From NCBI RefSeq assembly GCF_011300685.1, contig NZ_CP049864.1:922885-986884 (forward strand): a stretch of 64,000 nucleotides of DNA, written 5' to 3'. The position numbers and the translations under genes are program-made. This DNA comes from Lysobacter sp. HDW10 (GTDB lineage Bacteria; Pseudomonadota; Gammaproteobacteria; Xanthomonadales; Xanthomonadaceae). This document shows positions 15,867-36,464 of this stretch, in pieces. The stretch's first letter is position 1; each line of letters starts with the position of its first letter. The notes under the pieces are model-generated. The model was not told the DNA's origin. It made no database searches and was given only the letters and a program-made list of their open reading frames with translations.

Positions 15867-16451
15867 TCAGCCACCTTTGACTGCAAGCGCTGCGATGTAG
15901 CCGGCCTTGGGTGCCCATATTTGGATAGACCACGCGCTGATGTGGCCGAGTGCAGGATCCAGCGCATTGAGTTGCAGGTTTTGCCCGGCATCGGGCAGCA
16001 GCTCCAGTCGATCCAAACCAAAGGCGATGCCGCGACCATGCGCCTTCAAAATCGCCTCCTTGCAGCACCACAATCGGTGGAAGGCGAGGGCCTTTTCGTC
16101 GCCTTCGAGCTGTGCGAGCCAGGCTTGCTCGGACGGCGTGAAGTAGCGCTGTGCGATGTCATCGGCACGCCTGCGGGTTTGGACGCGTTCGATATCCACG
16201 CCCACGCGCGCGTGTTCGACATAGCTCGCTAACAAATAGCCACCGCTGTGGCTCCAGTTGCAATCAAGATGCGCCAAGGGCGGTTGTAGGAGCGGGCGAC
16301 CTTGGTCGTCGCGTTCGAAGTGAATGTCGGCCAGTGGCATTGCGAGCGACTCGGACAGCCATGTGCGCACCACGCTTTCCGACGTCGCCTGATCAGGCAG
16401 ACGTACGCAAACGGTGGGCCATTTGTGCGCGTTGGGCTTCGACGACGACAT
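15867..16451 (-). CDS. 4'-phosphopantetheinyl transferase (Sfp type)
   Basis: A 194-residue Sfp-superfamily enzyme that converts apo-ACP to holo-ACP using CoA. Core motifs: VGVDIERVQ (Mg-binding Asp/Glu), RYFTPSEQAWL, and WCCKEAILKAHG (the WxxKEAxxK signature). The Sfp-type fold would need about 200-240 residues, so this is a short but complete member. It is divergent from the aryl-ACP ligase gene (54 bases between starts) and is the best candidate for activating the aryl polyene ACP encoded at 24950. It may also serve other carrier proteins. Downstream it runs into rsmG. Confidence 0.85.
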   Translation of the reverse strand: MSSSKPNAHKWPTVCVRLPDQATSESVVRTWLSESLAMPLADIHFERDDQGRPLLQPPLAHLDCNWSHSGGYLLASYVEHARVGVDIERVQTRRRADDIAQRYFTPSEQAWLAQLEGDEKALAFHRLWCCKEAILKAHGRGIAFGLDRLELLPDAGQNLQLNALDPALGHISAWSIQIWAPKAGYIAALAVKGG

Positions 16452-16505
16452 GCGCTGCGTTTAAGCTATGGGCTGTACAGAGTGACATATTGATTCGCCA
16501 AAACC

Positions 16506-17831
16506 ATGACCAATGCAAGTGTGCCGTTGCTTCGGGGTGATCCCGCGGCCCCAGTGCTGTTGCGCACCGACGGCAGTGCGATCGATCGTGCCACCCTTCT
16601 GCGTCAGATCCATGCCTTGGCTGCGCAGTTGCCGGACGCGCCGTCGGTCATCAACGTCTGCGAATCGCGCCATCATTTTTTGGTTGCCTTGTGTGCGGCG
16701 GCTGTTCGTGGCCAAGTGAGCTTGATGCCGCCTTCGCGCGCGCCTGAATCCATTGCAGACATTGCCGCGCGCTATCCGGGCAGCACGGTGGTGGGCGATA
16801 ACGCGTCGGTGGCGGGCACGACGTGGATGTTGCCCGATGTGCTTGATGAAATTGATGTCGCTGATGTGCCGCAAATTGCCGCGGATGACACGGCGGTCAT
16901 CGTATTTACGTCGGGCAGCACCGGCACACCCTCGGCGAATTCAAAGGCGTGGGCGTCGATGCAACGCACGACTGCAGCGAATAAAGCGTGTCTGCAACAT
17001 TTGGCAGGGCACGACGGCAGTTCGCCCGTGGTGGCGACCGTGCCACCGCAACATATGTACGGCATGGAAACCAGTGTCTTGTTGCCGTTGTTTGAAGACT
17101 TTGCGATTCACGAAGGACGCCCGTTCTTTCCGGTGGATGTCGCCGACGCACTGTCGACATGCGATCGCCCCGCACTCTTGGTGACCACACCCGTACATTT
17201 GCGTGCACTGGTTGAGTCTGATGTTGTGTTCCCACCAATTGCTGGCATCGTGACGGCCACCGCGCCGCTCAGCGTGGAATTGGCTGCGGCTGCCGAAACA
17301 CGTTTTGCCTGTGAGCTGCGCGAAATGTTCGGCTCAACGGAAACCTGCGTGATTGCACACCGCCGCACCGCAAAAATGAAAACGTGGCAGTTGTATGACG
17401 ATGTGACACTGACGCCGGATGAAGAGGGCACTTGGATGACGCGTGAAGCCTATGCGAGCCCGATTCGCATCTCTGACATCGTTGCGTGCACCTCGGAGGG
17501 TCGCAAGTTTGAACTACTCGGACGGCAGGCTGACCTCCTCGAGATCGCCGGAAAGCGTGCTTCGCTGGCGGACCTGAACCGTTTGTTATTGCAAGCGCCG
17601 GGTGTATCGGATGGCGTGATGCTGCAAACGCACATAACAAATCGCTCTGGGACAAGGCGCATGGTCGCAGTGGTCTCCGGCGCATGCGATGACACACAAA
17701 TCATTGATTACTTACGGGATTTTATTGATCCCGTGTTCCTGCCTAAGCGCATTCATCATGTTGCTGCACTGCCCAGAAACGAAACCGGAAAGCTCAGCCG
17801 TGCCGACTTGTTAGCCTTGACGGGCGATTGA
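16506..17831 (+). CDS. xanA2: AMP-dependent aryl-ACP ligase of the aryl polyene pathway (XanA2-like)
   Basis: ANL-superfamily adenylating enzyme, 441 residues. IVFTSGSTGTPS is the AMP P-loop, MFGSTET the adenylate motif, and NETGKLSRADLL carries the C-terminal catalytic Lys. It is shorter than acyl-CoA ligases, as is common for aryl polyene ligases. In Xanthomonas, XanA2 uses ATP to load 3-hydroxybenzoate on the ACP XanC, and I infer the same role here from the nearby chorismatase and ACP. It pairs divergently with the phosphopantetheinyl transferase. The next pathway gene is about 5 kb away, beyond housekeeping genes. Confidence 0.78.
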   Translation: MTNASVPLLRGDPAAPVLLRTDGSAIDRATLLRQIHALAAQLPDAPSVINVCESRHHFLVALCAAAVRGQVSLMPPSRAPESIADIAARYPGSTVVGDNASVAGTTWMLPDVLDEIDVADVPQIAADDTAVIVFTSGSTGTPSANSKAWASMQRTTAANKACLQHLAGHDGSSPVVATVPPQHMYGMETSVLLPLFEDFAIHEGRPFFPVDVADALSTCDRPALLVTTPVHLRALVESDVVFPPIAGIVTATAPLSVELAAAAETRFACELREMFGSTETCVIAHRRTAKMKTWQLYDDVTLTPDEEGTWMTREAYASPIRISDIVACTSEGRKFELLGRQADLLEIAGKRASLADLNRLLLQAPGVSDGVMLQTHITNRSGTRRMVAVVSGACDDTQIIDYLRDFIDPVFLPKRIHHVAALPRNETGKLSRADLLALTGD

Positions 17832-17964
17832 CATTGCTGAACCTGATCCGGTTGTGGTCGTGCGTCACGCTGACTTCGTTACGCGTTCATCACGGGTGCG
17901 ACAAGAGACTGTGACCTAGCCTTCCAAGAAGGTGACTTCCAAAAACTACACGAGAAGGAACACT

Positions 17965-18222: not shown

Positions 18223-18259
18223 GTTCTCGTACGTTTGCCAATTCAACTTGGCACACCGG

Positions 18260-18286
18260 AGCCCTGCATGGATGCAGGGCTTTTTT
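18260..18286. terminator. Intrinsic terminator after the small membrane protein gene
   Basis: AGCCCTGCAT / ATGCAGGGCT stem with a two-base loop followed by six T residues on the plus strand. It overlaps the last codon of the convergent xthA gene and may also act weakly for it. Confidence 0.85.
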
Positions 18287-19055
18287 ATGCGATCTCGACC
18301 CACACAGGCGTGTGATCACTCGGGCGTTCCCAAGTGCGTGGTGCCACATCAATGCCGGCATCAACCACCGTGTCTTTCAGTGCATCTGACACCAAGGTGA
18401 GGTCAATACGTAAACCCCAGCCGCGATTGAACGCTGCCAAGCGGTAGTCCCACCAGCTGAATTGACCGTCTTCTTCGTGTTTCAAGCGAAACGCATCGTG
18501 CAAACCCAGGCCGCTGAGTGCTGCGAGTGCGTCACGTTCTTGCACCGAACACAGAATTTTGTCTTTCCACCGTTTTGGATCATGCACGTCGCGGTCTTCG
18601 GGCGCGATGTTGAAATCACCCATCACAACGAGCTTGGGATAGCGCTCGAGTTCGGCAGCAACCCAGGCGCGCATGGCTTCAAACCATCGCATTTTGTATT
18701 CGAACTTTTCGCTGCCAACGGCCTCGCCGTTCACCACATACAAATTGATAACGCGGACACCATTCACCGTGCCGGCGATGGCGCGTTGTTGAACATCTTC
18801 GAAATTCAGGATGCCGCGATGGACATCTTCTGGCGGTTGGTCACCGCGTACTAACAGCGCAACCCCGTTATAGGTTTTCTGGCCCGAGAAGACCACGCGA
18901 TAGCCGGCCGCTTCAATGGCTTCAACCGGAAACTTGCTGTCTTCCATCTTGGTTTCTTGCAAGCCGAGCACATCGGGCTTGGCCGTCTGAAGCCATTCGA
19001 GCACATGCTGCAGTCGCACGTTGAGGGAGTTGACGTTCCAGCTGGCGATTTTCAT
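18285..19055 (-). CDS. xthA: Exodeoxyribonuclease III
   Basis: AP endonuclease/3'-5' exonuclease of the Mg-dependent EEP family, 256 residues. MKIASWNVNSLNVR carries the first metal-ligand Asn, LQETK the catalytic Glu, GDFNIAPEDRDVHDP the central Asp-Asn, and SDHTPVWVEI the C-terminal Asp-His. It acts in base-excision repair. The stop codon lies inside the T-run of the upstream terminator, so the gene is convergent with and abuts the small membrane protein gene. Confidence 0.95.
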   Translation of the reverse strand: MKIASWNVNSLNVRLQHVLEWLQTAKPDVLGLQETKMEDSKFPVEAIEAAGYRVVFSGQKTYNGVALLVRGDQPPEDVHRGILNFEDVQQRAIAGTVNGVRVINLYVVNGEAVGSEKFEYKMRWFEAMRAWVAAELERYPKLVVMGDFNIAPEDRDVHDPKRWKDKILCSVQERDALAALSGLGLHDAFRLKHEEDGQFSWWDYRLAAFNRGWGLRIDLTLVSDALKDTVVDAGIDVAPRTWERPSDHTPVWVEIA

Positions 19056-19118
19056 GTTTGGATTATGTCACCGTCCGAATGCAGCAGTTGAATGCGTCTT
19101 TAATGGCATCATCTTGGA

Positions 19119-20132
19119 ATGAATAGCATCGATCTGCGAAGCGACACGGTCACCCGTCCCACCGCCGCCATGCGCGAAGCCATGCTGGCGGCTGAAGTCG
19201 GTGACGATGTCTATGGCGAAGACATCACCGTCAACGCCTTACAAGTGCGCGTGGCCGAAGACCTTGGCTTTGAAGCCGCGTTGTTTCTGCCGAGTGGTAC
19301 GCAATCCAATTTGTGTGCATTGTTGGCACATTGCGAGCGTGGCGACGAATACATTGTCGGCATGGAGGCGCACACCTATAAGTACGAAGGGGGTGGCGCT
19401 GCCGTCTTGGGTTCTATTCAGCCGCAGCCGGTGCCGCAAGGTGCGGGTGGGGTGATGCCGCTGGAGGTGGTCGAGGCCATGATCAAGCCGATAGATCCGC
19501 ATTTTGCACGCACACGTTTGCTGTGTCTGGAGAACACGTGGATGGGCCAGGTGATGCCCATGGACTACCTTGCGCAAGCACGCGCCCTGTGCGACCGACG
19601 CAGTTTGGGTTTGCATTTGGACGGTGCACGTTTGTACAACGCAGCCGTCGCATCGGGTGTGGAAGCGAAAGACATCACGCGTCATTTCGACAGCGTGTCT
19701 GTGTGTTTCTCCAAAGGTTTGGGCGCCCCAGTCGGTTCGGTGTTGGCGGGTTCGCGTGCGTTGATTGAACGCGCGCGCCGCTGGCGCAAAGTGACGGGTG
19801 GCGGCATGCGCCAATCCGGCATCCTTGCCGCGGCGTGTCTCTACGCTTTGGACCATCACGTGGAGCGACTTGCGGAAGATCACGCACGGGCGGCACGTTT
19901 GGCGGAAGGTTTGCGCATCGCGGAATCAGTCAAAGTACTTGGTCAACACACCAATATGGTGTTCATCGAAGTCGCCACGCAGCATCTGGATGCCCTGCGT
20001 TGGCATCTCAAAGCGAATGACATCCGCGCGTCGATCGGCTATTTGCCGTCGATCAGATTGGTCACGCATCTCGATATCGATGATGCTGCGATTGATCGTA
20101 CGATTTCAGCTTTCCAAGAGTTCAAGCCATGA
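19119..20132 (+). CDS. ltaE: Low-specificity L-threonine aldolase
   Basis: PLP enzyme of 337 residues that cleaves L-threonine/allo-threonine to glycine and acetaldehyde. Motifs: DLRSDTVTRPTAAMREAM, GDDVYGEDITV, LHLDGARLYNA (PLP-pyridine Asp) and SVCFSKGLGAPVGS with the Schiff-base Lys. Full length for the family. The stop overlaps the carbonic-anhydrase start by 4 bases (ATGA), so the two are co-translated. Confidence 0.93.
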   Translation: MNSIDLRSDTVTRPTAAMREAMLAAEVGDDVYGEDITVNALQVRVAEDLGFEAALFLPSGTQSNLCALLAHCERGDEYIVGMEAHTYKYEGGGAAVLGSIQPQPVPQGAGGVMPLEVVEAMIKPIDPHFARTRLLCLENTWMGQVMPMDYLAQARALCDRRSLGLHLDGARLYNAAVASGVEAKDITRHFDSVSVCFSKGLGAPVGSVLAGSRALIERARRWRKVTGGGMRQSGILAAACLYALDHHVERLAEDHARAARLAEGLRIAESVKVLGQHTNMVFIEVATQHLDALRWHLKANDIRASIGYLPSIRLVTHLDIDDAAIDRTISAFQEFKP

Positions 20133-20683
20133 AAGACACCACCGTCCGACCCTATCTAAACCATCTGCCAACCCTGGGCGAGCGCGTCTATATCGACGAG
20201 GCGGCGCGTGTGATTGGTGATGTCGTGTTGGGCAATGACGTGTCGGTGTGGCCGTTCACTGTAATTCGCGGTGATGTGAACTTCGTGCGTATCGGTGACC
20301 GCACCAATATCCAAGATGGCACCGTGGTGCACGTGAGTCACGATGGCCCGCACGCGAAGCTGGGTGGATTCGCGACCGTGATTGGTGCCGATGTCACGAT
20401 TGGTCATAAAGCCATCGTGCATGCTTGCCGCATCGAAGACGCATGTTTAGTCGGCATGGGTTCGACAGTCTTGGATGGTGCGGTGATCGAGAAGCATGGC
20501 TTCTTGGGCGCCAATGCGTTGCTTGCGCCAGGGAAAGTCGTCGGTAGTGGTGAAATGTGGCTGGGCGCGCCGGCAAAATTTGCACGCAAGCTGTCGGATG
20601 CCGAGATCGAAGCGCTGTACTACTCGGCGGGGCACTACGTGAAATTGAAAGACGAGTACCTCACCGGCAAACGACGCGAGTAA
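20129..20683 (+). CDS. Gamma-class carbonic anhydrase family protein (YrdA-like)
   Basis: A 184-residue left-handed beta-helix protein with hexapeptide repeats. The His ligands that would bind metal are in HVSHD and GHKAIVHAC, the pattern of the YrdA/PaaY branch. Family members are trimeric and have weak or unproven carbonic anhydrase or thioesterase activity. Coupled to ltaE by an ATGA overlap. A hairpin at its 3' end may terminate the pair. Confidence 0.88.
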   Translation: MKDTTVRPYLNHLPTLGERVYIDEAARVIGDVVLGNDVSVWPFTVIRGDVNFVRIGDRTNIQDGTVVHVSHDGPHAKLGGFATVIGADVTIGHKAIVHACRIEDACLVGMGSTVLDGAVIEKHGFLGANALLAPGKVVGSGEMWLGAPAKFARKLSDAEIEALYYSAGHYVKLKDEYLTGKRRE

Positions 20684-20698
20684 ATCAGCGCGCGTCGT
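20671..20698. terminator. Hairpin between convergent carbonic anhydrase and aroE genes
   Basis: Eight-base perfect inverted repeat ACGACGCG / CGCGTCGT with a 12-base loop spanning the carbonic-anhydrase stop. There is no clear T-tract, so termination is only a possibility. Confidence 0.35.
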
Positions 20699-20700
20699 CT

Positions 20701-21513
20701 TTAGCGGAGTGCCGCGTAAACGTCTGCGGTTTCAGGGCGAACGCCGTGCCAGATTTCAAAGCTGTCGGCAGCTTGTTCAACCAGCATGCCGAGACCATCC
20801 GACAAGCGTGTGACGCCTGCTTTGGCAGCCCAAGTAAGCGTGGGCAATGCGCGTGCGCCATAGTTCAAATCGATAAAGGTCGTGCCTTCAGAGACCATGC
20901 TGATCGGCCAAGCGTCACACTGCGCTGAATCAGCCGGTGCGGCGGCGAAGACCACCAAGTCAAACATGCCTTGCGACGGCAGTTCTTCGATCGTGCAGGC
21001 ACGCGTACGATTTTCATCAGCGAGCGCGTCGATCAAATCATAGGCGCGCGCACGGGTGCGATTGGCCACCATCAACTGTGATACACCGGCATCCAACAAC
21101 GCGGGTGCGACAGCATTCGCGGCACCGCCCGCGCCGATAAGCAAGACGCGCGCGTCATGCAAGTCGACGGCCAGTCGTTCGCGCAGATCGCGCAACAAAC
21201 CGGAACCATCGGTGGTATCTCCTTGCCACTCGCCATTCCGTTGAAAGAGCGTATTGACGCTCTTGGCGCGCAATGCACGGTGCGTGTGACGCGTACAAAA
21301 TTCAAAAGCGGCAGCTTTGTCTGGCGCAGTGACATTTGCACCGACGCCCCCCAGTGCAATGAACGTTTCAAAGCTATCTTTGAATCCACGCGTGCTGGTA
21401 TCCGTGGTGCTGTACGCGAGCGCGATATTGCATTGCGCCGCAAACAATTCATGGATTCGCGGGGACAGCGAATGCGCCACCGGGTGGCCGAAAACAGCAA
21501 AATGCGCGGTCAT
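20701..21513 (-). CDS. aroE: Shikimate 5-dehydrogenase
   Basis: NADPH-dependent reduction of 3-dehydroshikimate to shikimate, 270 residues. Motifs: FGHPVAHSLSPRIH, GANVTAPDK with the catalytic Lys, TDGSG with the Asp, LIGAGGAANAV for NADP, and NRTRARA. ATG 21513 matches the family N-terminus and places the gene 8 bases after hemB; the frame is open further upstream but inside hemB. It is last in an apparent operon flavoprotein-xanB2-hemB-aroE, which would couple shikimate-pathway flux to chorismate use by XanB2. Confidence 0.94.
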   Translation of the reverse strand: MTAHFAVFGHPVAHSLSPRIHELFAAQCNIALAYSTTDTSTRGFKDSFETFIALGGVGANVTAPDKAAAFEFCTRHTHRALRAKSVNTLFQRNGEWQGDTTDGSGLLRDLRERLAVDLHDARVLLIGAGGAANAVAPALLDAGVSQLMVANRTRARAYDLIDALADENRTRACTIEELPSQGMFDLVVFAAAPADSAQCDAWPISMVSEGTTFIDLNYGARALPTLTWAAKAGVTRLSDGLGMLVEQAADSFEIWHGVRPETADVYAALR

Positions 21514-21521
21514 CGGGGCAA

Positions 21522-22526
<1,005 letters not shown>

Positions 22527-22529: not shown

Positions 22530-23528
22530 TCAGGCGTGGACCCCGTCTATCTCGATCGCGAGTTCACTGCGGCAGATCGCCGCGTGCAGGATAATCCGCT
22601 GCGTTTCCTGCGGCAGCAGGCGTTCCAAGGCATCTGCGACGGTTTGCAGGTCTTCTCGGTCGCGCACATAGGCCTTCAGGTAGGCGCCAGAACCAAACCG
22701 TTCAGCTAAGTCAGGGCGGTGGGCGCGTGCGGCGTCTATCAGGGCATCGAAATTCCGGAAGGTCTCTTCGATTTGCGCGACGAGCATGCCCTGGTGCACC
22801 GAAGCGTGGCCCACCACGGCGGCGGTACCGGAGATCAACAGCGGCAGATCGTGACCCTGGGCCGGCAGCATGGCGCGCGCAAAGCTTGGCGGCTGCGGGC
22901 CGTATTGGCGCGGGTAGTGATAGGCACTGACTTGGCGCGGATTTTCAACGGGCGTGCCCGCATCGTTCGCGCTCAGCCAGTACACCTGCAACACCGCGTC
23001 CTCATCGCAGCGACCAATGGCGGTGGCCGCCGGCAGCTGTGACGCATCCATTTCTTGAAGCACGCGACCCCGGCCAATGCAGAACTGACGATAACGCTCG
23101 AGATCACCTTCGCCCTGTGTAATGGCGTCCAGATAGTTCCAAACGCGGAGCAAGTTGGGCGTATCGCTGTGTTGAACGTGTGTCCACAAGCTGCGATAAA
23201 TGCGTTCGGCCGTTGCGGCCACGCCTTCGTCGAGCTCTTCTTGTTCAATGGCGCCAAAACTCAATCGGCCATCGGTGGCCCAAGCCACACCCTCGGTCCG
23301 GCCGAACTGCACAGGCGCATCCGACAGCCACACTTCATAGGGCACATCACCCAGCGGGCGGAGCGGTACGCGCAAATAGCGCGGATCGGTGTCTTTCGTT
23401 GACGGCGGGTGATTGGCAAAACCAATCACGGCCAACACGTTTGGATTCGCCAACAATTCATCGGGCAAAGTGGCGTCGGCGTAGTACACCTTGAGCGATG
23501 CGGGCGGTATCACGTGTTGATTCGTCAC
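22530..23528 (-). CDS. xanB2: XanB2-like chorismatase (3-/4-hydroxybenzoate forming)
   Basis: A 332-residue member of the chorismatase family (FkbO/Hyg5/XanB2). The C-terminal half has a YjgF/Rid-like fold, ending with the AICRSELAIEIDGV strand whose Cys-Arg is typical, preceded by the TFRNFDALIDAA helix. Known XanB2 splits chorismate to pyruvate plus 3- and 4-hydroxybenzoate, feeding xanthomonadin and ubiquinone. The start overlaps the upstream flavoprotein stop by 4 bases; hemB follows after 12 bases. The clustered aryl polyene genes support the 3-hydroxybenzoate role, but product specificity cannot be read from sequence here. Confidence 0.86.
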   Translation of the reverse strand: MTNQHVIPPASLKVYYADATLPDELLANPNVLAVIGFANHPPSTKDTDPRYLRVPLRPLGDVPYEVWLSDAPVQFGRTEGVAWATDGRLSFGAIEQEELDEGVAATAERIYRSLWTHVQHSDTPNLLRVWNYLDAITQGEGDLERYRQFCIGRGRVLQEMDASQLPAATAIGRCDEDAVLQVYWLSANDAGTPVENPRQVSAYHYPRQYGPQPPSFARAMLPAQGHDLPLLISGTAAVVGHASVHQGMLVAQIEETFRNFDALIDAARAHRPDLAERFGSGAYLKAYVRDREDLQTVADALERLLPQETQRIILHAAICRSELAIEIDGVHA

Positions 23529-24859
23529 GGCGTACCCATCGTTTCGTCCAAGGTTTCAATCGCTACTTGGCGCTTACGTGTGCGCCAATTGCGCCATGCT
23601 TTCCCGGCCATGCCCAGTGAAGTAATCGCATAAATCAGGCGGAAAATGCGCAGTCGACGACGAATCACGGCGGCGTCGTCGAACACATCGCCTGACAACA
23701 AAGACACGACCGAACGCTCAACGCCCAAGATGTCGCGACGGTTTGAAAACAAGTGCTTCATGGTCGGCGACGTGAAGCGATAGATGAACCACTTGAACTC
23801 ATCAAGGCCCGTCTCGAAATGTTTCTCAAACTTGCGTTGTAAACGCTTCTCATCGGCGGGCTGTTTCAAGATGCCGTCCACTGCCTCGGCACATTTTTCA
23901 GCGCCATGCAGGGCCAAAAACACGCCCGAAGAAAACATCGGATCGACAAACGAATAGGCATCGCCCAATAGGGTCCAGCGCGGACCATTCATGCGCGTGC
24001 ATTCGTAGGCATAGTTGCCCGTGGCGTGGACGTCCGCCACGCGCGTTGCGCCCGACATGCGTTCGTGCAGCTCCGGCACGGTCGCGCAGGTTTCCATCAG
24101 GAATTCTTCAAGCGTGCCTGTGCGTTGCTTCAAATATTCGGGGTAGCACACCGCACCGATGCTGGTGATGCCTTCAGACAAAGGAATGAGCCACAACCAA
24201 CCATGGGTGTGGCGATAGATGCTGACATTGCCCGCGTCACGGCCTTCACGCATGCGGACGCCTTCAAAATGGCTGAAAACAGCGGCCGAGGCGTGCTTCG
24301 CATTCTTCTGTTTGAGTTTGAGCTTGTTGGCCAGGAACGTGTCGCGACCACTGGCATCGATCAGGTAGCGTGGCGTCCAGATGCGGTCACCTGCGCGCAC
24401 CGTTGGGGTGCCATCGGCGCCGAACTCAACAGCCGTGACGCGCGTGTTTTCATGCGCATCAACACCTGCCGCACATGCATTGTCGAACAGGATCTTGTCG
24501 AACTCAGCGCGCTTCACTTGGAAGGCAAATTCCGGCTGCTCGCGCAAACTCTTGCGGAAATCGAAGACCGAATAGGTGCCGTCATCGTTCGGGAAATCCG
24601 CGCCGAGCTTCAGAACACTGCAGGCGCGCACCTGGTCGATCACGCCCAAACGCTCCAGGACAGGCATGCCCTGAGGAAGCAGGGATTCTCCGATATGAAA
24701 ACGCGGGTGCGCGTCCTTTTCGAGCAAAGTGACTTTCCAACCTTTTCGCGCGAGCAAAGTGGACACGCTGCTACCAGCGGGGCCCGCGCCGATCACCAGG
24801 ACGTCAGGTGTGCTTGCTCCGCTTTTCGGAGCGCCTTCCGATTCATTCATATCCGGCAT
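23525..24859 (-). CDS. FAD-dependent oxidoreductase, tryptophan-halogenase-like, of the aryl polyene cluster
   Basis: A 444-residue flavoprotein. The N-terminal dinucleotide motif GAGPAGSSVS lies at about residues 24-33, GESLLPQG follows, and WLWLIP occurs at about 221-226, the WxWxIP motif used to recognise flavin-dependent halogenases. DASGRDTFLANKL and GDAYSFVDPMFSSG are the later FAD-binding strands. ATG 24859 was chosen because AGGA precedes it by 6 bases; further in-frame starts exist up to 24898. It is the first gene of the operon with xanB2 and diverges from the ACP gene. It could halogenate, hydroxylate or desaturate the aryl polyene. Confidence 0.8.
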   Translation of the reverse strand: MPDMNESEGAPKSGASTPDVLVIGAGPAGSSVSTLLARKGWKVTLLEKDAHPRFHIGESLLPQGMPVLERLGVIDQVRACSVLKLGADFPNDDGTYSVFDFRKSLREQPEFAFQVKRAEFDKILFDNACAAGVDAHENTRVTAVEFGADGTPTVRAGDRIWTPRYLIDASGRDTFLANKLKLKQKNAKHASAAVFSHFEGVRMREGRDAGNVSIYRHTHGWLWLIPLSEGITSIGAVCYPEYLKQRTGTLEEFLMETCATVPELHERMSGATRVADVHATGNYAYECTRMNGPRWTLLGDAYSFVDPMFSSGVFLALHGAEKCAEAVDGILKQPADEKRLQRKFEKHFETGLDEFKWFIYRFTSPTMKHLFSNRRDILGVERSVVSLLSGDVFDDAAVIRRRLRIFRLIYAITSLGMAGKAWRNWRTRKRQVAIETLDETMGTP

Positions 24860-24949
24860 TAGAGTTCCTAAGCCGTGCATAATAACGCCTTGGGTCACAA
24901 TTCAGTGATTACGCACTGCTGCGCGAGCAGCCCAACGGAACAGGAAACG
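24860..24949. promoter_or_regulatory. Divergent promoter region between flavoprotein-xanB2 and ACP operons
   Basis: A 90-base spacer separates the divergent pigment operons and must hold at least one promoter. Visible: an AT-rich GCATAATAAC giving a TATTAT hexamer on the minus strand, and a small palindrome CTGCTGCGCGAGCAG at about 24918-24932 that could be an operator. AGGAAACG precedes the ACP ATG. No good paired -35/-10 set was found. Confidence 0.45.
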
Positions 24950-28495: not shown

Positions 28496-30828
28496 AGCCG
28501 TTCTCCGCAACACAGCGTGTTGCGCTCGCATTGGTTTGGCTGGCGATTATTGTCGGCATCGGTTTTTGGCAGGCCAGCCATCTGCAAATGAGTGGCGACT
28601 TGCGGAAATTCATGCCGGCCGCCGAAACGCCGGCACAAAAGTTTTTGATGGATGAGCTCGGCGAAGGTCCGGGGTCGCGACTGTTGTTGATGTCGATTGA
28701 AGGTGCGTCAGAAGAAAGCTTGGCCGAGCAGTCGCGCTTTCTGCAAACGCGCTTGTCGGCGAATCCGGATTTTGTCTTGGCGTCAAACGGCGGCATGAGC
28801 GGCTTGGACGCCATTCCCGAGCACCTTCGTAGTTACCGCTATGTATTGAGTGATCGCGGCACGCAATTGGATCGCGAAAGCTTGTCCGCCGCCTTGCAAG
28901 AACGTTTGGCAGATCTCGGTTCGCCTGCGGCCGGTTTGATTGAACCGCTCTTGGGTTCGGATCCGACACTGGAAACACTGAACCTGGCCGAGCAATGGCA
29001 ACCCGCCAACGGGCCGCAAACCTTGGATGGGGTTTGGTTTGATCACGCGGGTAAGAAGTCGATCTTGATTGCGCAAACCCGCGCGGCAGGATTTGATCCG
29101 ACCGGTCAAGAACGTGCGGTCGAAGCGATTCACGATGCGTTTGACGCCAGCAAAACGCAGATCGCAGGCGCTGAAAAATCAAAACTGACGCTGACAGGGC
29201 CTGGCGCATTTGCAGTTGAAATTGGCGGTCGCACGTCGAAAGAAGCTTCGACAATCGGCACCATTGACGGTATTGCGTTATTCATTCTTTTGATCTTGGC
29301 CTATCGCAGTTGGCGCACGCCCATCTTTGGTGCGCTACCGCTGGCCACAGCGGGTGTCGCGGGCTTGGCCGCGGTTGCTGCGTTCTTCGACGGGGTGCAT
29401 GGCATTACGGTGGCGTTTGGTTTCACGCTCATTGGTGTGGTTCAGGACTACCCCATCCATTTGTTATCACATCAACGCAAAGGCATTACGCCGTGGGAGA
29501 ACGCGCGAAAGATTTGGCCGACGTTGGCCACCGGCGTCGCTTCTACCTGTATCGCGTACTTCACGTTCTTGGCATCGGGCGTCGATGGCTTGAAGCAGCT
29601 CGCAGTCTTCACTGTGGTGGGATTGGTCAGCGCCGCGCTCACCACGCGTTTGCTATTGCCTGCCTTGATAGACCCGGAGCCGCGTGATCCGGCAGACTCT
29701 CACGCATTGTCACGTTTGTGGACGCAGGTGGAGCGTTTGCCGAGCGCGCCTAAGGGCGTGCTCATTGCCATGGCCGCACTGTCCCTTGCGGTGATTGCGT
29801 TTGCACCGGCGAATTTCTGGGAAAACGATCTGTCGAAGTTGACGCCGGTACCGGCAGCGGCCTTGAAGCAAGACGAAGTGCTGCGCAAAGATTTGGGCGC
29901 ACCTGATGTGCGCTATGTCATTGCATTGCAAGCTGCGACCGCGGATGAAGCCATTGCCCGTTCCGAAGCTTTGGCGCCGAAGTTAGAGGCCCTTGTGGGC
30001 AATGGTGCCATTCAAAACTTCGATATGGCTGCACGCTATTTGCCGAGTGCGGCGACGCAAAAGGCGCGTCAGGCAGCCTTGCCCGCGCCGGAAACGCTCT
30101 CTCACTCTTTGGAAGCAGCAGTCGCCAACACGGCGTTCCGTCCTGATGTATTCGGTGCGTTCTTGCGTGATGTGGAAACCGCGCGAACCGCTCGACCCCT
30201 GCGCGCTGAAGACCTGAAGGGCACACCGCTTGCATCGACCTTGGAAGGCTTGCTGCTTCAACGCGATGGTCACGCCACGGCTTTGATCACCTTGTCCGGT
30301 ATTCGTGATGCGGCAGAAGTCCAGCGTGCGCTGCAGGGCACGGGCGTGCAGTTGATGGATCTAAAAGCGGCCTCCGAATCGTTGGTCGTCGAATACCGTC
30401 AACGCGTGCTGTGGTCCTTGTTGATTGCCTCTGTTCTCTTGGTCGCGACGGTGTGGTTCGCATTGAAGCAACGCGCGCGGGTCGTGCGTGTCTTGCTGCC
30501 GATGACCTTGAGTTTGTTGTTAATCCTTGCCGTGCTGCGCGGATTGGGCATCGAGCTGACACTGTTCCATTTGGTGGCCTTCATTCTTGCTGCCGGTTTG
30601 GGCTTGGACTACGCCTTGTTCTTCGAACATGCAGGCGATGATCGACCCGATCAGTTGCGCACCTTCCATGCACTCATCGTCTGTAGTTTGACCACGGTGT
30701 TGGTGTTCTTCCTCCTTTCTCTCTCCAGCATTCCTGTGTTGCGGGCGATTGGCGTCACGGTCACTTTAGGCGTGTTGTTCAACTTCGTACTGGCACTTTG
30801 GATTACACGGCGACCGACGCACGCATGA
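28480..30828 (+). CDS. MMPL/RND family exporter of the aryl polyene cluster
   Basis: A 782-residue inner-membrane transporter with the RND duplication: one TM helix near residues 11-30, a periplasmic domain, five or six TM helices around residues 255-400, then a second copy with TM helices from about 420 and 640-780. GDLRKFMPA and ALFFEHAGDDRPDQ are typical of MMPL proteins. It likely flips or exports the finished aryl polyene lipid. ATG 28480 overlaps the LolA-like gene by 16 bases; ATG 28492, forming an ATGA junction, is an equally likely start. Confidence 0.87.
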   Translation: MSRQMKPFSATQRVALALVWLAIIVGIGFWQASHLQMSGDLRKFMPAAETPAQKFLMDELGEGPGSRLLLMSIEGASEESLAEQSRFLQTRLSANPDFVLASNGGMSGLDAIPEHLRSYRYVLSDRGTQLDRESLSAALQERLADLGSPAAGLIEPLLGSDPTLETLNLAEQWQPANGPQTLDGVWFDHAGKKSILIAQTRAAGFDPTGQERAVEAIHDAFDASKTQIAGAEKSKLTLTGPGAFAVEIGGRTSKEASTIGTIDGIALFILLILAYRSWRTPIFGALPLATAGVAGLAAVAAFFDGVHGITVAFGFTLIGVVQDYPIHLLSHQRKGITPWENARKIWPTLATGVASTCIAYFTFLASGVDGLKQLAVFTVVGLVSAALTTRLLLPALIDPEPRDPADSHALSRLWTQVERLPSAPKGVLIAMAALSLAVIAFAPANFWENDLSKLTPVPAAALKQDEVLRKDLGAPDVRYVIALQAATADEAIARSEALAPKLEALVGNGAIQNFDMAARYLPSAATQKARQAALPAPETLSHSLEAAVANTAFRPDVFGAFLRDVETARTARPLRAEDLKGTPLASTLEGLLLQRDGHATALITLSGIRDAAEVQRALQGTGVQLMDLKAASESLVVEYRQRVLWSLLIASVLLVATVWFALKQRARVVRVLLPMTLSLLLILAVLRGLGIELTLFHLVAFILAAGLGLDYALFFEHAGDDRPDQLRTFHALIVCSLTTVLVFFLLSLSSIPVLRAIGVTVTLGVLFNFVLALWITRRPTHA

Positions 30829-31286
30829 CACTCGAACTCGACACCGTCCGCATCGAAGATTTGATTCCGCATAAGGGCGGCATGTGCCTGTGGCAGAACG
30901 TCGAAGCCTTTGACGACGAACACGTCATGCTGTCGACAAACAGTCACAAGGACAGCGACAACCCACTGCGTTCCGAAGGTGAGCTGCGCGCCATTCACCT
31001 GTGCGAATACGGTGCGCAAGCCATGGCCGTGCATGGCGGTCTATTGGCGAGAGCGGGCGGTGAAGCGCGTAAGGGTTATTTGGTTGCCTTGCGTGGCGTG
31101 GACATTCGCGTGCCGCGCTTGGATACGTTGCACGGTGCCTTGCAGTGCGAGGCAAGATTATTGATGAACAGCGCGTCCAGTCAGCAGTATGCGTTTCGCT
31201 TGCTGCATGAAGCAGAGTGCATTGCAGAGGGCAGGGCTGCGGTTATGTTGGCGCCGATCGGAGAGTCAGATGAGTCAAGTTCCTAA
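30825..31286 (+). CDS. ApeP-type hot-dog 3-hydroxyacyl-ACP dehydratase
   Basis: A 153-residue hot-dog protein. IPHKGGMCLWQNVE is the characteristic N-terminal block of ApeP-like dehydratases (PHR/K-x-P/G-M), and HLCEYGAQAMAVHGG carries a central Glu where FabZ has its catalytic acid. Together with the ApeI-like protein it would give two dehydratases, as in the E. coli aryl polyene pathway. The start at 30825 overlaps the exporter stop (ATGA), and the end overlaps the ketoreductase gene by 17 bases. Confidence 0.82.
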   Translation: MTLELDTVRIEDLIPHKGGMCLWQNVEAFDDEHVMLSTNSHKDSDNPLRSEGELRAIHLCEYGAQAMAVHGGLLARAGGEARKGYLVALRGVDIRVPRLDTLHGALQCEARLLMNSASSQQYAFRLLHEAECIAEGRAAVMLAPIGESDESSS

Positions 31287-32007
31287 AACACGTCGCGCCT
31301 TGGTCACAGGTGGTTCCGGCGATATCGGGTCGGCCATTTGTCTCGAATTGGCGCGTCAGGGGATGCAGGTGATCGTGCATGCCAATGGCAACCTAGCCAA
31401 GGCCGAAGCCGTTGCGCAACAGATTGTGCAAGAAGGCGGACAGGCGCGCGCCGTCGCATTTGATATCACGGATGCGGAAGCAACCTCTGCGCAACTGCAG
31501 GCCCTATTGGAAGATGCGGCGATTGACGTTGTCGTCAATAACGCCGGCATTCATGACGATGCGCCGATGGCGGGTATGTCGAGCACGCAGTGGCATCGTG
31601 TCATCGATGTGTCCTTGCATGGCTTCTTCAATGTCAGCCAACCGCTGTTGTTGCCGATGGCACGTCAACGTTGGGGGCGTGTGGTGTGCGTATCGAGTGT
31701 CGCTGCAGTGATGGGCAATCGCGGTCAAACCAACTACGCCGCTGCGAAGGGTGCATTGCACGGCGCCGTTAAATCCTTGGCACGTGAAATGGCGAGTCGC
31801 GGCATCACCGCGAATGTCGTGGCACCGGGCGTGATTCAAGGCAGCATGACAGCAGACGTGTTCGACCCGGAACATATCAAAGCGATTGTGCCGGCAGCGC
31901 GCGCGGGTAAACCTGAAGAGGTGGCAGCGCTGGTGGCGTTCTTATGCCGTGACAGCGCCGCGTATATCAACGGTCAAGTGATTGGCGTCAATGGTGGTAT
32001 GGCCTAG
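31270..32007 (+). CDS. xanH: FabG-like 3-oxoacyl-ACP reductase (XanH-like)
   Basis: Classical SDR of 245 residues: TGGSGDIGSA NADPH motif, NNAGIHDDAPM, catalytic Ser in CVSSVAAVMGN, YAAAKGAL (Tyr-x3-Lys), and VNGGMA at the end. It reduces the beta-keto group during polyene elongation; the Xanthomonas counterpart XanH is a FabG-like enzyme required for pigment. ATG 31270 has GGAGAG upstream. It is the last gene of the plus-strand operon and converges with the halogenase-like gene across an 18-base gap containing a hairpin. Confidence 0.85.
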   Translation: MSQVPKTRRALVTGGSGDIGSAICLELARQGMQVIVHANGNLAKAEAVAQQIVQEGGQARAVAFDITDAEATSAQLQALLEDAAIDVVVNNAGIHDDAPMAGMSSTQWHRVIDVSLHGFFNVSQPLLLPMARQRWGRVVCVSSVAAVMGNRGQTNYAAAKGALHGAVKSLAREMASRGITANVVAPGVIQGSMTADVFDPEHIKAIVPAARAGKPEEVAALVAFLCRDSAAYINGQVIGVNGGMA

Positions 32008-32009
32008 CC

Positions 32010-32039
32010 ACGCAGGCGCGAATCTTTAAGCGCTTGCGT
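32010..32039. terminator. Possible hairpin terminator between convergent pigment operons
   Basis: Arms ACGCAGGCGC and GCGCTTGCGT pair over 10 bases with one G-T wobble and a 10-base loop that contains the halogenase-like gene's stop codon. There is no clear T-tract on the plus strand, so it is only a plausible transcription-collision point. Confidence 0.3.
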
Positions 32040-33642
32040 ACCAAACGGCGCCCAACATCGGTGCAGCTGCCGGTGCTTCGGCCTTCGCGAACATGGCATC
32101 GAGCGCAGACAAATCGACTTCCGGACTGCGCGCACGGATGACGTCGGCGATTTCAGCGGCCAGACGCGTGAGCGTGTTGATATTGGATTCAATGCGCGCG
32201 ATGAACTCGGCGTCGGTCAGAACATCGGTCAACGAACGATTCATTTCTTTGAACCAGTCAATCTTGTACTGGTCGAGCAAACGACCGTCTTCAGGCGCGC
32301 CGAACTGACTTGCGTGGTGCCATGCACGCAGCACCGGTTGCATCAACAGATTCAAACGACTTGCGGCTTCCATCGGCCCGCGCAATCGTGCGAGCACGCT
32401 CAAATGCGCAATGCGCCCCGAGATATACAAGGGCGCAAGCAGCGCCCAATAGTAGGTGTAATCCCAGACAACCTTGACCGGCATGACCATGGCATTGCCG
32501 AAAAGTGCGTACTGGTCTTGGTACAGCGTCATGGTGTTCTCGTGGAAAGAGAACAACAGCTGTTGATAGATGTCCGCATGCATGTCGATGGCGTGGCCGC
32601 TCAAGTCTTTGCAAATCAGATCTGTGATGTAGGTGTTTGAGATGGCAATAAAGTCGCTGCCCGGCGAATAGAACGGATCCGGGAACACACCGGATTCACC
32701 CGTCAACGCCCAGCGGTGCTTGGAGAAAACCTGTTTGCAGTCATGCGAGAAGTGACGCATAAACTTGAAATCGATCAGCGCGTGTTCCGGCTTGCACAGG
32801 TCCGCATGCAACTGCGGCTGGTGCACAGACAGCCACTGCATGAACTTCTCATGCGTGTTCATCTGTTCAAGCGGATGGATGGCTTGGTCCGCGACGATGC
32901 CGATGGAGTGGGCGTTTGACGATAAGGGAATCAACCACAGCCAATAGCCTTCACCACACAGATGATTCGTTGAGCGCCAGCGCTCACGCGGCGTGCAACG
33001 GTCCAGCCACGCCTCGTTGTCGGTCCAGGTGTTCGGGTCTACGCAGCCTTCCACGCGCGCCCAAACGGCATTGACGTCGTGCGCGTTGGGTTTGGCAAGC
33101 GACAGTTTGCGTTTGAGGATATTTGCACGACCCGCGGCGTCGACGACCCAGCGCGAGGCCAGTGTTTCGCGCGCGCCACCTTGCTCGTACTCGACGCCAT
33201 GCAGGCCGCCTTGTTCGTCCAACTCAACTTTTTTGACGACGGCATCCATGACCACGCGCACACCTGCAGCCTCCGCGTGTGCCATCAATGAGTTCTCAAA
33301 ACGCCCGCGATCCAGCTGCCAAGATGCGGTGGGCAGCAACATGCTGACGCCCACTTCCGTGCATTGATCAATGCGATCGGATCCGTCATTGAAGAAGAAG
33401 CGGAATCCGAACTTGCGAATTTGATCTTCGTGCAAATGCGAAGCCAAATTGAGGTTCTTGCAGAAGTAATGCGCACCGATTTCGACCGTGGACTCGCCCA
33501 CTTTGAAGCCCGCATCGGGTGCCGGACCTTTGCGGCGTTCAAGCACCACGATGTCGGTGTCCGGGCGTGCGTGCTTCAACTGCAAGGCCAAGGTCAGGCC
33601 GGCCAAGCCACCGCCCAAAATGCAAACTTCTGTGCTCTTCAA
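32026..33642 (-). CDS. Flavin-dependent halogenase-like protein of the aryl polyene cluster
   Basis: A 538-residue flavoprotein with the tryptophan-halogenase fold: GGGLAGL at residues 10-16, KVGESTVEIG at 47-56, and WLWLIP at 234-239, the WxWxIP signature. FPDPFYSPGSDFIAISN is the later FAD/substrate region. Xanthomonadins are brominated, and the Xanthomonas pigment cluster yields chlorinated product in a heterologous host, so this is the prime halogenase candidate. The start codon is TTG, preceded by GAGG 8 bases upstream; no ATG fits the N-terminus. It is third in the minus-strand operon after KS-CLF and the GT2. Confidence 0.84.
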   Translation of the reverse strand: MKSTEVCILGGGLAGLTLALQLKHARPDTDIVVLERRKGPAPDAGFKVGESTVEIGAHYFCKNLNLASHLHEDQIRKFGFRFFFNDGSDRIDQCTEVGVSMLLPTASWQLDRGRFENSLMAHAEAAGVRVVMDAVVKKVELDEQGGLHGVEYEQGGARETLASRWVVDAAGRANILKRKLSLAKPNAHDVNAVWARVEGCVDPNTWTDNEAWLDRCTPRERWRSTNHLCGEGYWLWLIPLSSNAHSIGIVADQAIHPLEQMNTHEKFMQWLSVHQPQLHADLCKPEHALIDFKFMRHFSHDCKQVFSKHRWALTGESGVFPDPFYSPGSDFIAISNTYITDLICKDLSGHAIDMHADIYQQLLFSFHENTMTLYQDQYALFGNAMVMPVKVVWDYTYYWALLAPLYISGRIAHLSVLARLRGPMEAASRLNLLMQPVLRAWHHASQFGAPEDGRLLDQYKIDWFKEMNRSLTDVLTDAEFIARIESNINTLTRLAAEIADVIRARSPEVDLSALDAMFAKAEAPAAAPMLGAVWYASA

Positions 33643-33660
33643 AATTAGAACCTCAAACCA

Positions 33661-34425
33661 TCAGGATTCAAAAACGCGCGCAGGTTGACGGCGCACGTTA
33701 CGGTATTCGCGAACCACATGCCCGTAGGCAATCACTTGTCCCACCACGTGCGAAGTGATGTTGTACAAATCACGGCCCAGACGGAAATGACTCTTACGAT
33801 ATTCTTGCGCTGCATCTGTACACGCATAGCGTGCCTCGATCGGTACACACACGACACCGGCGCCCGCGCGACGTGATGCTGAAATCAGCAATTGCGCCTC
33901 GTACACGAAGCCTTCGCCCGGCACGTTATCAAGCGAGAACACACTGCGCGGATAAAGGCGCTGACCACTTTGCGTATCGACAACGCCGTAGCCGCAACCC
34001 CAGCTGATACCCCAGTCACCGAAATCATTACCGAGTCGGCGATACCAAGGTTGCGATGCACGTTTCTTCATGCGCGCGCCGATGATCACATCACCGGGAT
34101 GTGCATTCGCGGCTTCGATCAAACGCGGAATGTCTTTGGCAAGATGCTGGCCGTCGCCATCCATCGTCGTCACTGCAAGCGCACCCATGGCCAAGGCCTG
34201 CTTGAAACCATCGCGCAACGATTGGCCTTTACCCATGCGTTGCGAATGGCGTAGCAAGGTAATGGGGCGATCTTGAATGAGTTCGCTGGTGCCGTCGTCT
34301 GAGCCATCGTCGACCACGATCACGGTGTCGGCAAACTGCAAAGCGTCATCGACCACATCGCAGATACGCAAGCGCTCGTTGAGGGCCGGAATGACCACGG
34401 CGATATTGTGTCGATTCAAAGTCAT
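33661..34425 (-). CDS. xanK: Glycosyltransferase family 2 of the aryl polyene cluster (XanK-like)
   Basis: A 254-residue GT-A enzyme with no membrane helices: AVVIPALNERLRICD, VVDDGSDDGT, TTMDGDGQH (DxD). Xanthomonas XanK is described as a novel glycosyltransferase needed for pigment and for balanced exopolysaccharide. The equivalence here rests on the family and cluster position, not on an alignment. The start overlaps the KS-CLF stop by 4 bases. It may add a sugar to the polyene head or to a polyprenyl carrier. Confidence 0.75.
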   Translation of the reverse strand: MTLNRHNIAVVIPALNERLRICDVVDDALQFADTVIVVDDGSDDGTSELIQDRPITLLRHSQRMGKGQSLRDGFKQALAMGALAVTTMDGDGQHLAKDIPRLIEAANAHPGDVIIGARMKKRASQPWYRRLGNDFGDWGISWGCGYGVVDTQSGQRLYPRSVFSLDNVPGEGFVYEAQLLISASRRAGAGVVCVPIEARYACTDAAQEYRKSHFRLGRDLYNITSHVVGQVIAYGHVVREYRNVRRQPARVFES

Positions 34426-36464
34426 GGTGCGTGAATCAACTCAACTTGCAAGACGCGGCCAATACCGGCATCGAGATTCACGACAGCGTCTTTGCCCAAT
34501 GCCATGGCATCAATCAACGGGAGCATGCGCGACATGCGATTGATCTGCATCTTTTGGCCAAGCGCGCCTTGGTTCGGATCGGGATCACCGTCGACGAAGC
34601 GCGCACGCAGGCGCGTGCCGCCTTCGGCATTCGACAACACAAAACCCGCGCCCAACAAACCGCGGCCGGTACTCACCGTCGACAACGGACCGACCGAGCC
34701 GGTATCGAACGCCGACAACACAACGGCCTCTTCACCATTGGCCAGTTGAATCAGTGCTTCCATCAAACCTTGTGCAAAGGTCCAGTAGTAGGCCGTGACG
34801 GCACTGGAAGGGGCCATGCAGCCGTGCCCGATCGTCCAATAACCCGCTGCTGCGTTATGCACAGAGTTATGGAATTTGGTGGGCGAAATTGAATCCGGTG
34901 CGTCGCGCAACGTCGCGCAGACGTAATCCGTAATGACGAGGTCGCCATCCGTGCTCGCGAATATCGACGGTAAGGCTTTCGGGTCGCGGCCCGACATTGC
35001 AACGGCGGCTTGCGCCACTTCGAGAGCTACTGCGACGGATTCGGGTGCACGACGACGCTCGTTTGCCGGCAGCATTTCAGGCGAGGGCTTGGACGGCGCC
35101 GTGCCCAACAGTTCACCTGTTCGTGCAAAGGCTTGCGCGGCTTCCCAATTCGGAATGTCGTTGCACCAGAAGCCAAACCCTTCGATACGTGCCTCACGCG
35201 TGCCGTCCTGTGCTTGACGCGCGTGCGTGTCGACATGCGTTGGCTGCGTGATTTTGCCGAACACCAAGGAGCAGTTATTGCCGCCGAAGCCGAACGAATT
35301 GTTCATCGCAACGGACACCGATTTTTCTGCGGGCGCAAAACGTATCTGTGGTCCGCAAATGGCGTCCGGTGTTGCACTGTTCAAAGTGCGGGGCATGAAG
35401 CCCTCTTCCAAAGCAATCAATGCAAATACGGATTCGACGATGCCCGCTGCGCCCAAGGTATGACCGGTCCAACCTTTGGTTGAAGCCGCATGCAGGGTGT
35501 CAGGGAACATGGCTTTGACCGCAATCGCTTCCACTTGGTCGTTGGCCGGCGTCGAAGTGCCGTGCAAATTCAGATAGTCGACATCCGCAGGCGATAAGCC
35601 GGCACGGTCGAGTGCCGCTTGCATCGCTTTGCGTGCACCCAAGCCCTCGGGGTGCGGTGTGCTCATGTGATACGCATCGCTGGATTCACCGTGGCCCAGC
35701 AACATCAGCCCAGTGTCATTGCCATCGGCGCGCTCAAGTACAGCGAAGCCGCCGGCTTCACCCAAAGAAATGCCATTGCGATGGGCGTCAAACGGTTTGC
35801 ACGGCTCTGGCGCAACCAAGCCCAAAGAGTTGAATCCGAACAGCACGCTGCCACACAAGGTATCGACACCGCCTACCAAGGCGGCGTCTGCTTCCCCGGC
35901 GGCAATCAATCGGGCCGCTTGCGCAAACACTTTGGCGCTCGAGGAGCATGCGGTGGCCACGGTGATGCTCGGCCCGCGTAACTCTGTTGCGTGCTGCAAA
36001 AAGTCACCCAAGGAATTCGGGGTATGCACGATGGCGCGTGCGAGATCGTCGGCAAAGCTGCCGTCTTCTTTGAGACGCGTATAGGCTTCTTCCGTTGCAC
36101 CAATGCTCGCGGTCGAGGTGCCAATCACCAATGCAACGCGATCGGCGCCGTATTTCGCTTTCATGCGCGTCAGTTCCGCCCACACCTCGTCTTGCTGCAA
36201 CGCGAGCCAGGCCAAGCGGTTGTTGCGACATTCCCACAGCTGCCACGCCTCGGGCAACGGTGCGTCCTCGACACCTTCGACGCGGCCGATATGGCAGGTC
36301 AATGGGGCTTCACTGAAATCATTGGGTCTGAGACCCGAGCGTTCTGCACGGAGGGCGTCGACTTGCGCCTGGCGTCCTCGGCCCAAGGCAGTTGTTGCGG
36401 TATAGGCGCGTATCGCTAAGGGCGCTGTCCGGTTCTCGGGTTTTGCAGGCGTCACAGTGATCAT
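34422..36464 (-). CDS. Fused ketosynthase-chain length factor of the aryl polyene pathway
   Basis: A 680-residue two-domain protein. Residues about 1-405 form a complete FabF-like ketosynthase: nucleophile Cys173 in TACSSS, His301 in LHGTSTP, His335 in TGHTLGAAG, then NSFGFGG. After a short linker, residues about 424-680 form a second thiolase-like domain of the Ketoacyl-synt_2 type, without an active-site Cys, as expected for a chain length factor. In E. coli the equivalents ApeO and ApeC are separate subunits. ATG 36464 was chosen; a TTG at 36482 would sit inside the TATAAT box. It is first in the operon with the GT2 and halogenase-like gene. Confidence 0.87.
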   Translation of the reverse strand: MITVTPAKPENRTAPLAIRAYTATTALGRGRQAQVDALRAERSGLRPNDFSEAPLTCHIGRVEGVEDAPLPEAWQLWECRNNRLAWLALQQDEVWAELTRMKAKYGADRVALVIGTSTASIGATEEAYTRLKEDGSFADDLARAIVHTPNSLGDFLQHATELRGPSITVATACSSSAKVFAQAARLIAAGEADAALVGGVDTLCGSVLFGFNSLGLVAPEPCKPFDAHRNGISLGEAGGFAVLERADGNDTGLMLLGHGESSDAYHMSTPHPEGLGARKAMQAALDRAGLSPADVDYLNLHGTSTPANDQVEAIAVKAMFPDTLHAASTKGWTGHTLGAAGIVESVFALIALEEGFMPRTLNSATPDAICGPQIRFAPAEKSVSVAMNNSFGFGGNNCSLVFGKITQPTHVDTHARQAQDGTREARIEGFGFWCNDIPNWEAAQAFARTGELLGTAPSKPSPEMLPANERRRAPESVAVALEVAQAAVAMSGRDPKALPSIFASTDGDLVITDYVCATLRDAPDSISPTKFHNSVHNAAAGYWTIGHGCMAPSSAVTAYYWTFAQGLMEALIQLANGEEAVVLSAFDTGSVGPLSTVSTGRGLLGAGFVLSNAEGGTRLRARFVDGDPDPNQGALGQKMQINRMSRMLPLIDAMALGKDAVVNLDAGIGRVLQVELIHAP

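Follow-up and report, generated by a model that had tools for sequence, protein, structure and literature searches.

The 64,000-nucleotide window analyzed here belongs to the 2.18 Mb single-contig genome of Lysobacter sp. HDW10 (G000; genomes and loci are cited below by our G and L numbers) and carries, in two groups, what appears to be an aryl polyene pigment cluster of the xanthomonadin type. A 4'-phosphopantetheinyl transferase (PPTase) and an aryl-acyl carrier protein (ACP) ligase form a pair at 15.9-17.8 kb, and the main pigment block lies at 22.5-36.5 kb (Pfam). The traits of such clusters found here are a XanB2-type chorismatase, an ACP, the aryl-ACP ligase (substrate predicted), a beta-ketoacyl-ACP reductase (KR) and dehydratases, the second of them assigned by position. 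Also present are acyltransferases, a LolA-like carrier, an MMPL exporter, a glycosyltransferase, and an ApeO-type ketosynthase (KS) joined to a half-size chain length factor (CLF) in one chain. Judged on sequence comparison, the locus is very probably an aryl polyene cluster of the xanthomonadin type, arranged in two modules as is common among relatives, with a KS-CLF of one chain as its condensing enzyme.

A single open reading frame for KS and CLF

KS and CLF form one open reading frame (ORF) of 680 residues (34422-36464) that starts with ATG and contains no internal stop. The initial annotation, made from the sequence alone, had listed a KS-CLF block; both parts are present, and that they are one ORF was not spelled out there. 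The KS motifs of the fused protein are intact, with CSSS at residue 173, HGTSTP at 301, and HTLGAAG at 335, and the motifs ACSSSAK, NLHGT, and GHTLGAAG were found in 48/48 of the relatives' KS sequences checked. Seven KS sequences, for which no start codon was found, are excluded from this check and from the KS tree described below.

The CLF half shares 46-65% identity with the separate CLFs of relatives (23 sequences). It was placed with a joint alignment containing fewer KS rows, after an earlier version had aligned the CLFs to the KS half. An ERRRAP stretch is retained in this half and may hold an arginine pair equivalent to the one proposed for ACP contact (PMC8358021). The start codons nearest the linker are TTG400 and GTG401 upstream, at the KS C-terminus, and TTG453 downstream, within the CLF. 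Translation of a separate CLF in this species is unlikely.

The best AlphaFold2 model of the fused protein had a pTM of 0.81 and a mean pLDDT of 77. Its top Foldseek match was the fused KS-CLF of PfaC (6riw), with a template modeling (TM) score of 0.70 by query length and 15% identity, while the other 49 matches listed reached 0.45-0.48 on the same scale. Since the KS half makes up 59% of the query, a score of 0.70 indicates that part of the CLF half was matched too; the VIA-align rows listed cover the KS half only. Most probably the two halves associate as KS and CLF usually do, either inside a single chain or across two, and we infer a KS:CLF fold for the fused protein, in place of the two-protein heterodimer.

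Several observations weigh against a single-chain synthase of this kind. Initiation at TTG400 or GTG401 would produce a CLF with a short extension, and fusion of the genes does not prove that the chain remains uncleaved. The structural model was built on 31 sequences, and the mean pLDDT of the other four models was lower, at 63 to 71. With a root-mean-square deviation of 9.9 for the 6riw alignment, the modeled domain arrangement is only tentative. Finally, the glutamine of the [ST]FAQ pattern, residue 563 here, is not invariant: 44/55 CLFs match, and among the 11 that depart from the pattern seven have FAE and four were unmatched by the search. We do not equate this glutamine with the Q166 of PMC3691225, since in G138 it is residue 153 rather than 166.

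Occurrence and origin of the fusion

To judge by coordinates, KS and CLF are out of frame in 124 of the 125 family relatives that have both on one contig, the exception being the sister species G149. This comparison started from 129 relatives with a KS among the matches listed; in the other four, KS and CLF lie on different contigs (G024, G030) or no CLF was among the matches listed (G141, G161). We also read loci directly. The first set contained 48 separate and two fused pairs, plus one G149 locus without the genes, and the second set was separate throughout (9/9). In all 56 separate genomes read in this way (48 + 8, with G166 in both sets), the CLF was in another frame. The KS and CLF genes of relatives mostly overlap or lie a few bases apart, and in 9/9 loci of the second set the stop codon of KS shares bases with a potential start codon (ATGA in eight, GTGA in one). 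With 1/125 relatives in frame, the idea that the fusion is common in the family was rejected.

Wider scans gave 83 CLF rows in 82/369 genomes of the class, seven of them with an open frame of at least 600 (G000, G010, G570, G341, G391, G417, and G565). G010 proved separate on reading, and the loci of G570, G341, G391, G417, and G565, together with the shorter G467, G466, and G445, were out of frame (8/8). In the phylum, 61/398 genomes had a CLF; the sole new long frame, in G874, and two shorter ones were read, and 3/3 were out of frame. For the remaining rows of both scans, frame length was the sole criterion. No fusion outside the two sister species was found in the family, class, and phylum scans, and the literature searched, which largely left out subscription journals, contained no report of aryl polyene synthesis by a fused KS-CLF. 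The single-chain aryl polyene KS-CLF thus appears to be new, while the cluster and its layout are themselves ordinary.

G149 is the only other fused genome found. Its fused ORF has 721 residues, and the KS and CLF halves of the two species are 81% and 74% identical, respectively. Because the two fused sequences group at 100/99 in the KS tree (50 rows), one origin of the fusion is the simplest reading. The G149 linker is longer, at 64 residues, and consists mostly of a 162-base palindromic repeat (L049, 10491-10652). This copy holds an in-frame ATG preceded by AAGGGG, from which G149 could still start its CLF separately.

The repeat is dispersed in G149, where copies of about 105-160 bases with the ends GCGCCTCATC/GATGAGGCGC account for 64 pieces at no fewer than 40 merged places; the count is a lower bound, with 40/61 candidates scored. 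Ten genomes were searched. Outside G149, a single 23-base match turned up in G000, and the eight other genus members searched had no copy, a distribution suggestive of lineage-specific spread. A remnant of the repeat in the present species cannot be shown, given the one 23-base match in its genome. Among five other copies in G149, one lies inside a 135-residue open frame and four in no frame of at least 120. One could imagine that the repeat entered a translationally coupled KS/CLF junction in the common ancestor and joined the frames into a single-chain synthase, that the insert now makes up most of the G149 linker and has shrunk to 20 residues here, and that the fixed 1:1 pairing alters chain length or pigment output. 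We regard this scenario as rather doubtful.

Two other explanations of the long ORF deserve consideration. Decay would mean that the KS stop was lost in a small-genome lineage whose pigment locus is disappearing, leaving a non-functional fused protein. The two fused genomes (2.18 and 2.1 Mb) are indeed among the smallest of the genus, as is G205 (2.2 Mb), and the locus can be lost: neither G182 nor G205, both genus members, gave a KS-CLF match at E 1e-60, and G182 gave no CLF match at 1e-20. However, the rest of the pathway ORFs are uninterrupted here and match those of G149 almost end to end, the KS motifs and CLF sequence are retained, and the fusion is common to two species whose halves have diverged to the identities given above. 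We consider decay improbable. Loss of a stop, or a shifted frame, through an error of assembly or sequencing is conceivable in any single genome, but the sister genome is fused too, with its different linker, and the junction here differs from those of relatives by a 20-residue linker and not by a single base. Such an error is highly unlikely, and a genuine single-chain gene remains the preferred reading.

Gene content and two-module layout

Gene families were assigned by Pfam scans of the ORFs, complemented by NCBIfam (Table 1). The initial annotation had proposed a xanthomonadin-type aryl polyene cluster, and Pfam and synteny recovered every gene that it named in its place. Of its dehydratases, the first is supported by a FabA match, while the second, with no match in Pfam or NCBIfam, is assigned by position only. 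The XanB2-type chorismatase scored 205.5 bits against the NCBIfam model chori_FkbO_Hyg5, under the model's own cut-off of 325; XanB2 matches were found in 183/198 family genomes. For the general genes, Pfam gives families only, and xthA, ltaE, and carbonic anhydrase are names that we presume.

Table 1. Features of the pigment locus (positions in the window; loci counts as described in the text)
Feature	Position	Strand	Basis and remarks
4'-Phosphopantetheinyl transferase (PPTase)	15867-16451	-	Pfam ACPS 5.2e-24
Aryl-ACP ligase	16506-17831	+	Pfam AMP-binding 4.5e-18; role presumed from XanA2 and ArcT
General genes between the modules, outside the pathway	18285-22517		The five genes below
xthA-like	18285-19055		Pfam Exo_endo_phos
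ltaE-like	19119-20132		Pfam Beta_elim_lyase
Hexapeptide protein	20129-20683		Pfam
aroE	20701-21627		Pfam
hemB	21522-22517		Pfam
XanB2-type chorismatase (3-/4-hydroxybenzoate from chorismate)	22530-23528	-	Pfam FkbO_Hyg5-like_N 3e-37
Halogenase-like protein HAL1, dependent on flavin adenine dinucleotide (FAD); XanB1 position	23525-24898	-	Pfam Trp_halogenase 9.7e-27; GAGPAG and WLWLIP
Acyl carrier protein (ACP)	24875-25219	+	Pfam PP-binding 1.1e-8; true start probably within the ORF
Membrane-protein-like ORF	25219-25914	+	No Pfam or NCBIfam match; found in 38/47 loci
PlsC-type acyltransferase AT1	25887-26666	+	Pfam Acyltransferase 2.1e-30
FabA/ApeI-like dehydratase DH1, 92 residues	26663-26941	+	Pfam FabA 2.9e-6
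LpxL-type acyltransferase AT2	26938-27939	+	Pfam Lip_A_acyltrans 1.5e-11
LolA-like periplasmic lipid carrier	27788-28495	+	Pfam LolA_3 5.1e-72
MMPL-family exporter	28480-30828	+	Pfam MMPL 2.4e-13
Second dehydratase DH2	30798-31286	+	By position, conserved between the MMPL exporter and the KR; unmatched in Pfam and NCBIfam
Beta-ketoacyl-ACP reductase (KR)	31189-32007	+	Pfam adh_short 3.7e-50 from residue 37; true start probably ~31270
Second FAD halogenase-like protein FAD2	32026-33642	-	Pfam Trp_halogenase 4.8e-13; GGGLAG and WLWLIP
Family 2 glycosyltransferase (GT2)	33661-34425	-	Pfam Glycos_transf_2 3.8e-22
CLF half, residues 424-680	34422-35195	-	Pfam Ketoacyl-synt_2 2.2e-21; no start codon of its own
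Linker, 20 residues (404-423)	35196-35255	-	No in-frame ATG, GTG, or TTG
KS half, residues 1-403	35256-36464	-	Cys173, His301, and His335 by motif; Pfam ketoacyl-synt N and C

All 17 queries, 16 from the pigment genes plus hemB, matched in each of G149, G046, and G106, and gene order in these genomes is the same except for inversion of the whole block. A chance grouping of genes was rejected on these 17/17 matches and the conserved order. The order of the pigment block is kept in nine relatives, namely these three and G079, G006, G064, G138, G130, and G166; in each of the last two the block spans two contigs. AT1 is absent from the order-conserved blocks of G079, G130, and G138, and FAD2 from that of G138. 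Presence was counted over 47 loci, some of them incomplete. On this count AT1 is patchy (12/47, missing in G079). The membrane-protein-like ORF is kept next to the ACP, with 30-46% identity outside the sister species.

In the proposed pathway, XanB2 would make 3-hydroxybenzoate from chorismate, and the ligase would charge the ACP, previously activated by the PPTase, with it. The fused KS-CLF would elongate this starter with malonyl units, the KR and two dehydratases producing a double bond per step. The FAD enzymes may halogenate or oxidize the ring, the acyltransferases and glycosyltransferase may join the polyene to a lipid, and the MMPL exporter and LolA protein may transport it to the outer membrane. 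The roles of XanB2, KS, CLF, ACP, and KR in pigment formation are transferred from characterized relatives and would hold here by analogy; the other steps we infer. Deleting any one of KS, ACP, KR, and the CLF-like ORF16 left L. enzymogenes without pigment, and deleting the xanB2 homolog (ORF5) reduced the pigment by ~90%, with 3-hydroxybenzoate restoring the mutant (PMC3691225).

A brominated pigment is plausible because both FAD proteins carry GxGxxG and WxWxIP, which we take to be motifs of flavin-dependent halogenases. HAL1 was found in 31/47 loci and FAD2 in 34/47, all with WxWxIP; GxGxxG was present in 31/31 HAL1 and 14/34 FAD2 sequences, the FAD2 shortfall perhaps arising from matches that begin past the motif. 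KxGxxF, a proxy pattern for a putative catalytic lysine, occurs in 30/31 HAL1 and 31/34 FAD2. The best solved matches of both proteins by sequence are mostly halogenases, for HAL1 8zop (1.1e-55). Against this, HAL1 and FAD2 could be hydroxylases or other oxidases and the pigment not brominated. Their weaker matches include hydroxylases and reductases, and HAL1 occurs without FAD2 in the 6.2 Mb relative G138, so that HAL1 alone may not brominate. L. enzymogenes, moreover, is described as lacking the halogenase gene found by KS-CLF genes in other clusters, and its pigment as having no bromine pattern (PMC3691225). With WxWxIP kept in both proteins throughout the loci and halogenases leading the solved matches, this alternative is a serious one, yet less probable than not. 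If the ring is brominated, FAD2 would be a better candidate than HAL1, because it is absent from G138 and a halogenase gene is absent from L. enzymogenes, whose pigment shows no bromine pattern.

The initial annotation also held that general genes part the PPTase and ligase from the main block, which Pfam confirmed with five genes. They span a ligase-XanB2 gap of 4.7 kb, and the Xanthomonas-type adjacency is absent. Its further suggestion that the layout may differ from that of Xanthomonas, where the ligase is next to XanB2, is correct, but the split is not special to this genome. In the comparison of gene order across the family that it proposed, ligase matches occurred in 140 genomes and were strong in 130/198; the ten weak ones (E above 1e-30) were left out, and positions were compared in the 130. 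Ligase and XanB2 share a contig in 98 and lie on different contigs in 28, with XanB2 absent among the matches listed in 4. The distance in the 98 is under 3 kb in 28, 3-10 kb in 14, 10-60 kb in 47, and over 60 kb in 9. A split (at least 3 kb) is thus the majority state (70/98), with distances from 3 kb to megabases, and the Xanthomonas-type order is a minority state in the family. All genus members in the set, this genome included, are split (8/8, 4.7-15.5 kb).

For 20 split genomes, picked by contig span and genus spread, we examined the 20 kb surrounding the ligase. The PPTase adjoined the ligase in 18/20, gidB was nearby in 17/20, xthA lay on the other side in 16/20, and the hexapeptide gene fell inside the 20 kb in 14/20; in G022 and G033 the ligase has no neighboring PPTase, gidB, or xthA. 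In G006 and G064 the ligase adjoins XanB2. Taken with the variable distance to XanB2, this constant neighborhood points to two separate homes and not one insertion, which fits a ligase-PPTase pair and a main block that would be distinct modules in most family genomes judged. The title of the initial annotation had implied that a housekeeping island was recently inserted into a cluster that had been contiguous. The closeness of ligase and XanB2 in some lineages (28/98 under 3 kb) would agree with that, but the neighborhood and distances just described speak against it. We rejected a recent insertion as most improbable, no sign of it having been found in the family gene positions, from which ancestral order was not reconstructed. 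A literature search on hemB in the pig cluster returned nothing on layout, and one on xanA2 with xanthomonadin found no paper.

The intervening general genes are the same in other genus members, with additions in G046 and G106 and without ltaE in G130, G166, and G182. In G046 (L050-L051) and G106 (L052-L053), an additional 7-10 kb separates aroE from the hexapeptide gene; the inter-module stretch is thus itself variable. G182 (L060, 4756-13461), a genus member with 100% estimated completeness, retains the PPTase, ligase, general genes minus ltaE, and XanB2 in order. Its ligase frame is still open, and the ligase may therefore have another role, or the loss of KS-CLF may be recent.

Significance and comparison with known systems

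A recent review puts the number of KS-CLF structures at only three and attributes this to the difficulty of expressing and purifying such pairs (PMC12664062). A natural single-chain KS-CLF could ease stoichiometry, engineering, and structural work. The sister-species pair presents a case of two overlapping genes becoming one, with a repeat visible in one linker, and the layout result corrects the inserted-island idea, in that the ligase-PPTase pair and the main block are separately housed in most family genomes judged.

With the pig cluster of X. axonopodis pv. manihotis, the locus has in common XanB2, XanB1 (reductase/halogenase), an ACP, a membrane protein, two acyltransferases, a 95-residue dehydratase (the counterpart of DH1), an exporter, a halogenase, and an AMP-ligase; a putative secreted protein there probably corresponds to the LolA-like gene (PMC3838355). 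In that cluster XanB2 and the AMP-ligase have consecutive locus numbers (PMC3838355), whereas here five general genes separate XanB2 from the ligase and its neighboring PPTase. The Xanthomonas KS and CLF homologs are separate (PMC3691225), while here they are fused.

The L. enzymogenes OH11 locus (ORF1-ORF17) likewise has a type II polyketide synthase with KS (ORF17), CLF-like ORF16, ACP, and KR, together with two dehydratases, an acyltransferase, a LolA-like protein, an exporter, and a XanB2 homolog (PMC3691225). It differs in having KS and CLF as two adjacent genes and no halogenase gene found (PMC3691225), against one gene and two halogenase-like genes here. For the Lysobacter pigment, absorption maxima of 430 and 453 nm are given in chloroform (PMC3691225).

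The ApeO-ApeC KS-CLF heterodimer (6qsp) consists of two chains, whereas the enzyme described here is one chain and not a pair of separate proteins. The PfaC didomain (6riw) does have KS and CLF in one chain, a resemblance in how the enzyme would work only. PfaC is part of a different kind of synthase, the polyunsaturated fatty acid synthase. Its chain has 923 residues and the low identity noted above, while the fused protein is closer to the ApeO-type KS, at 34-38%.

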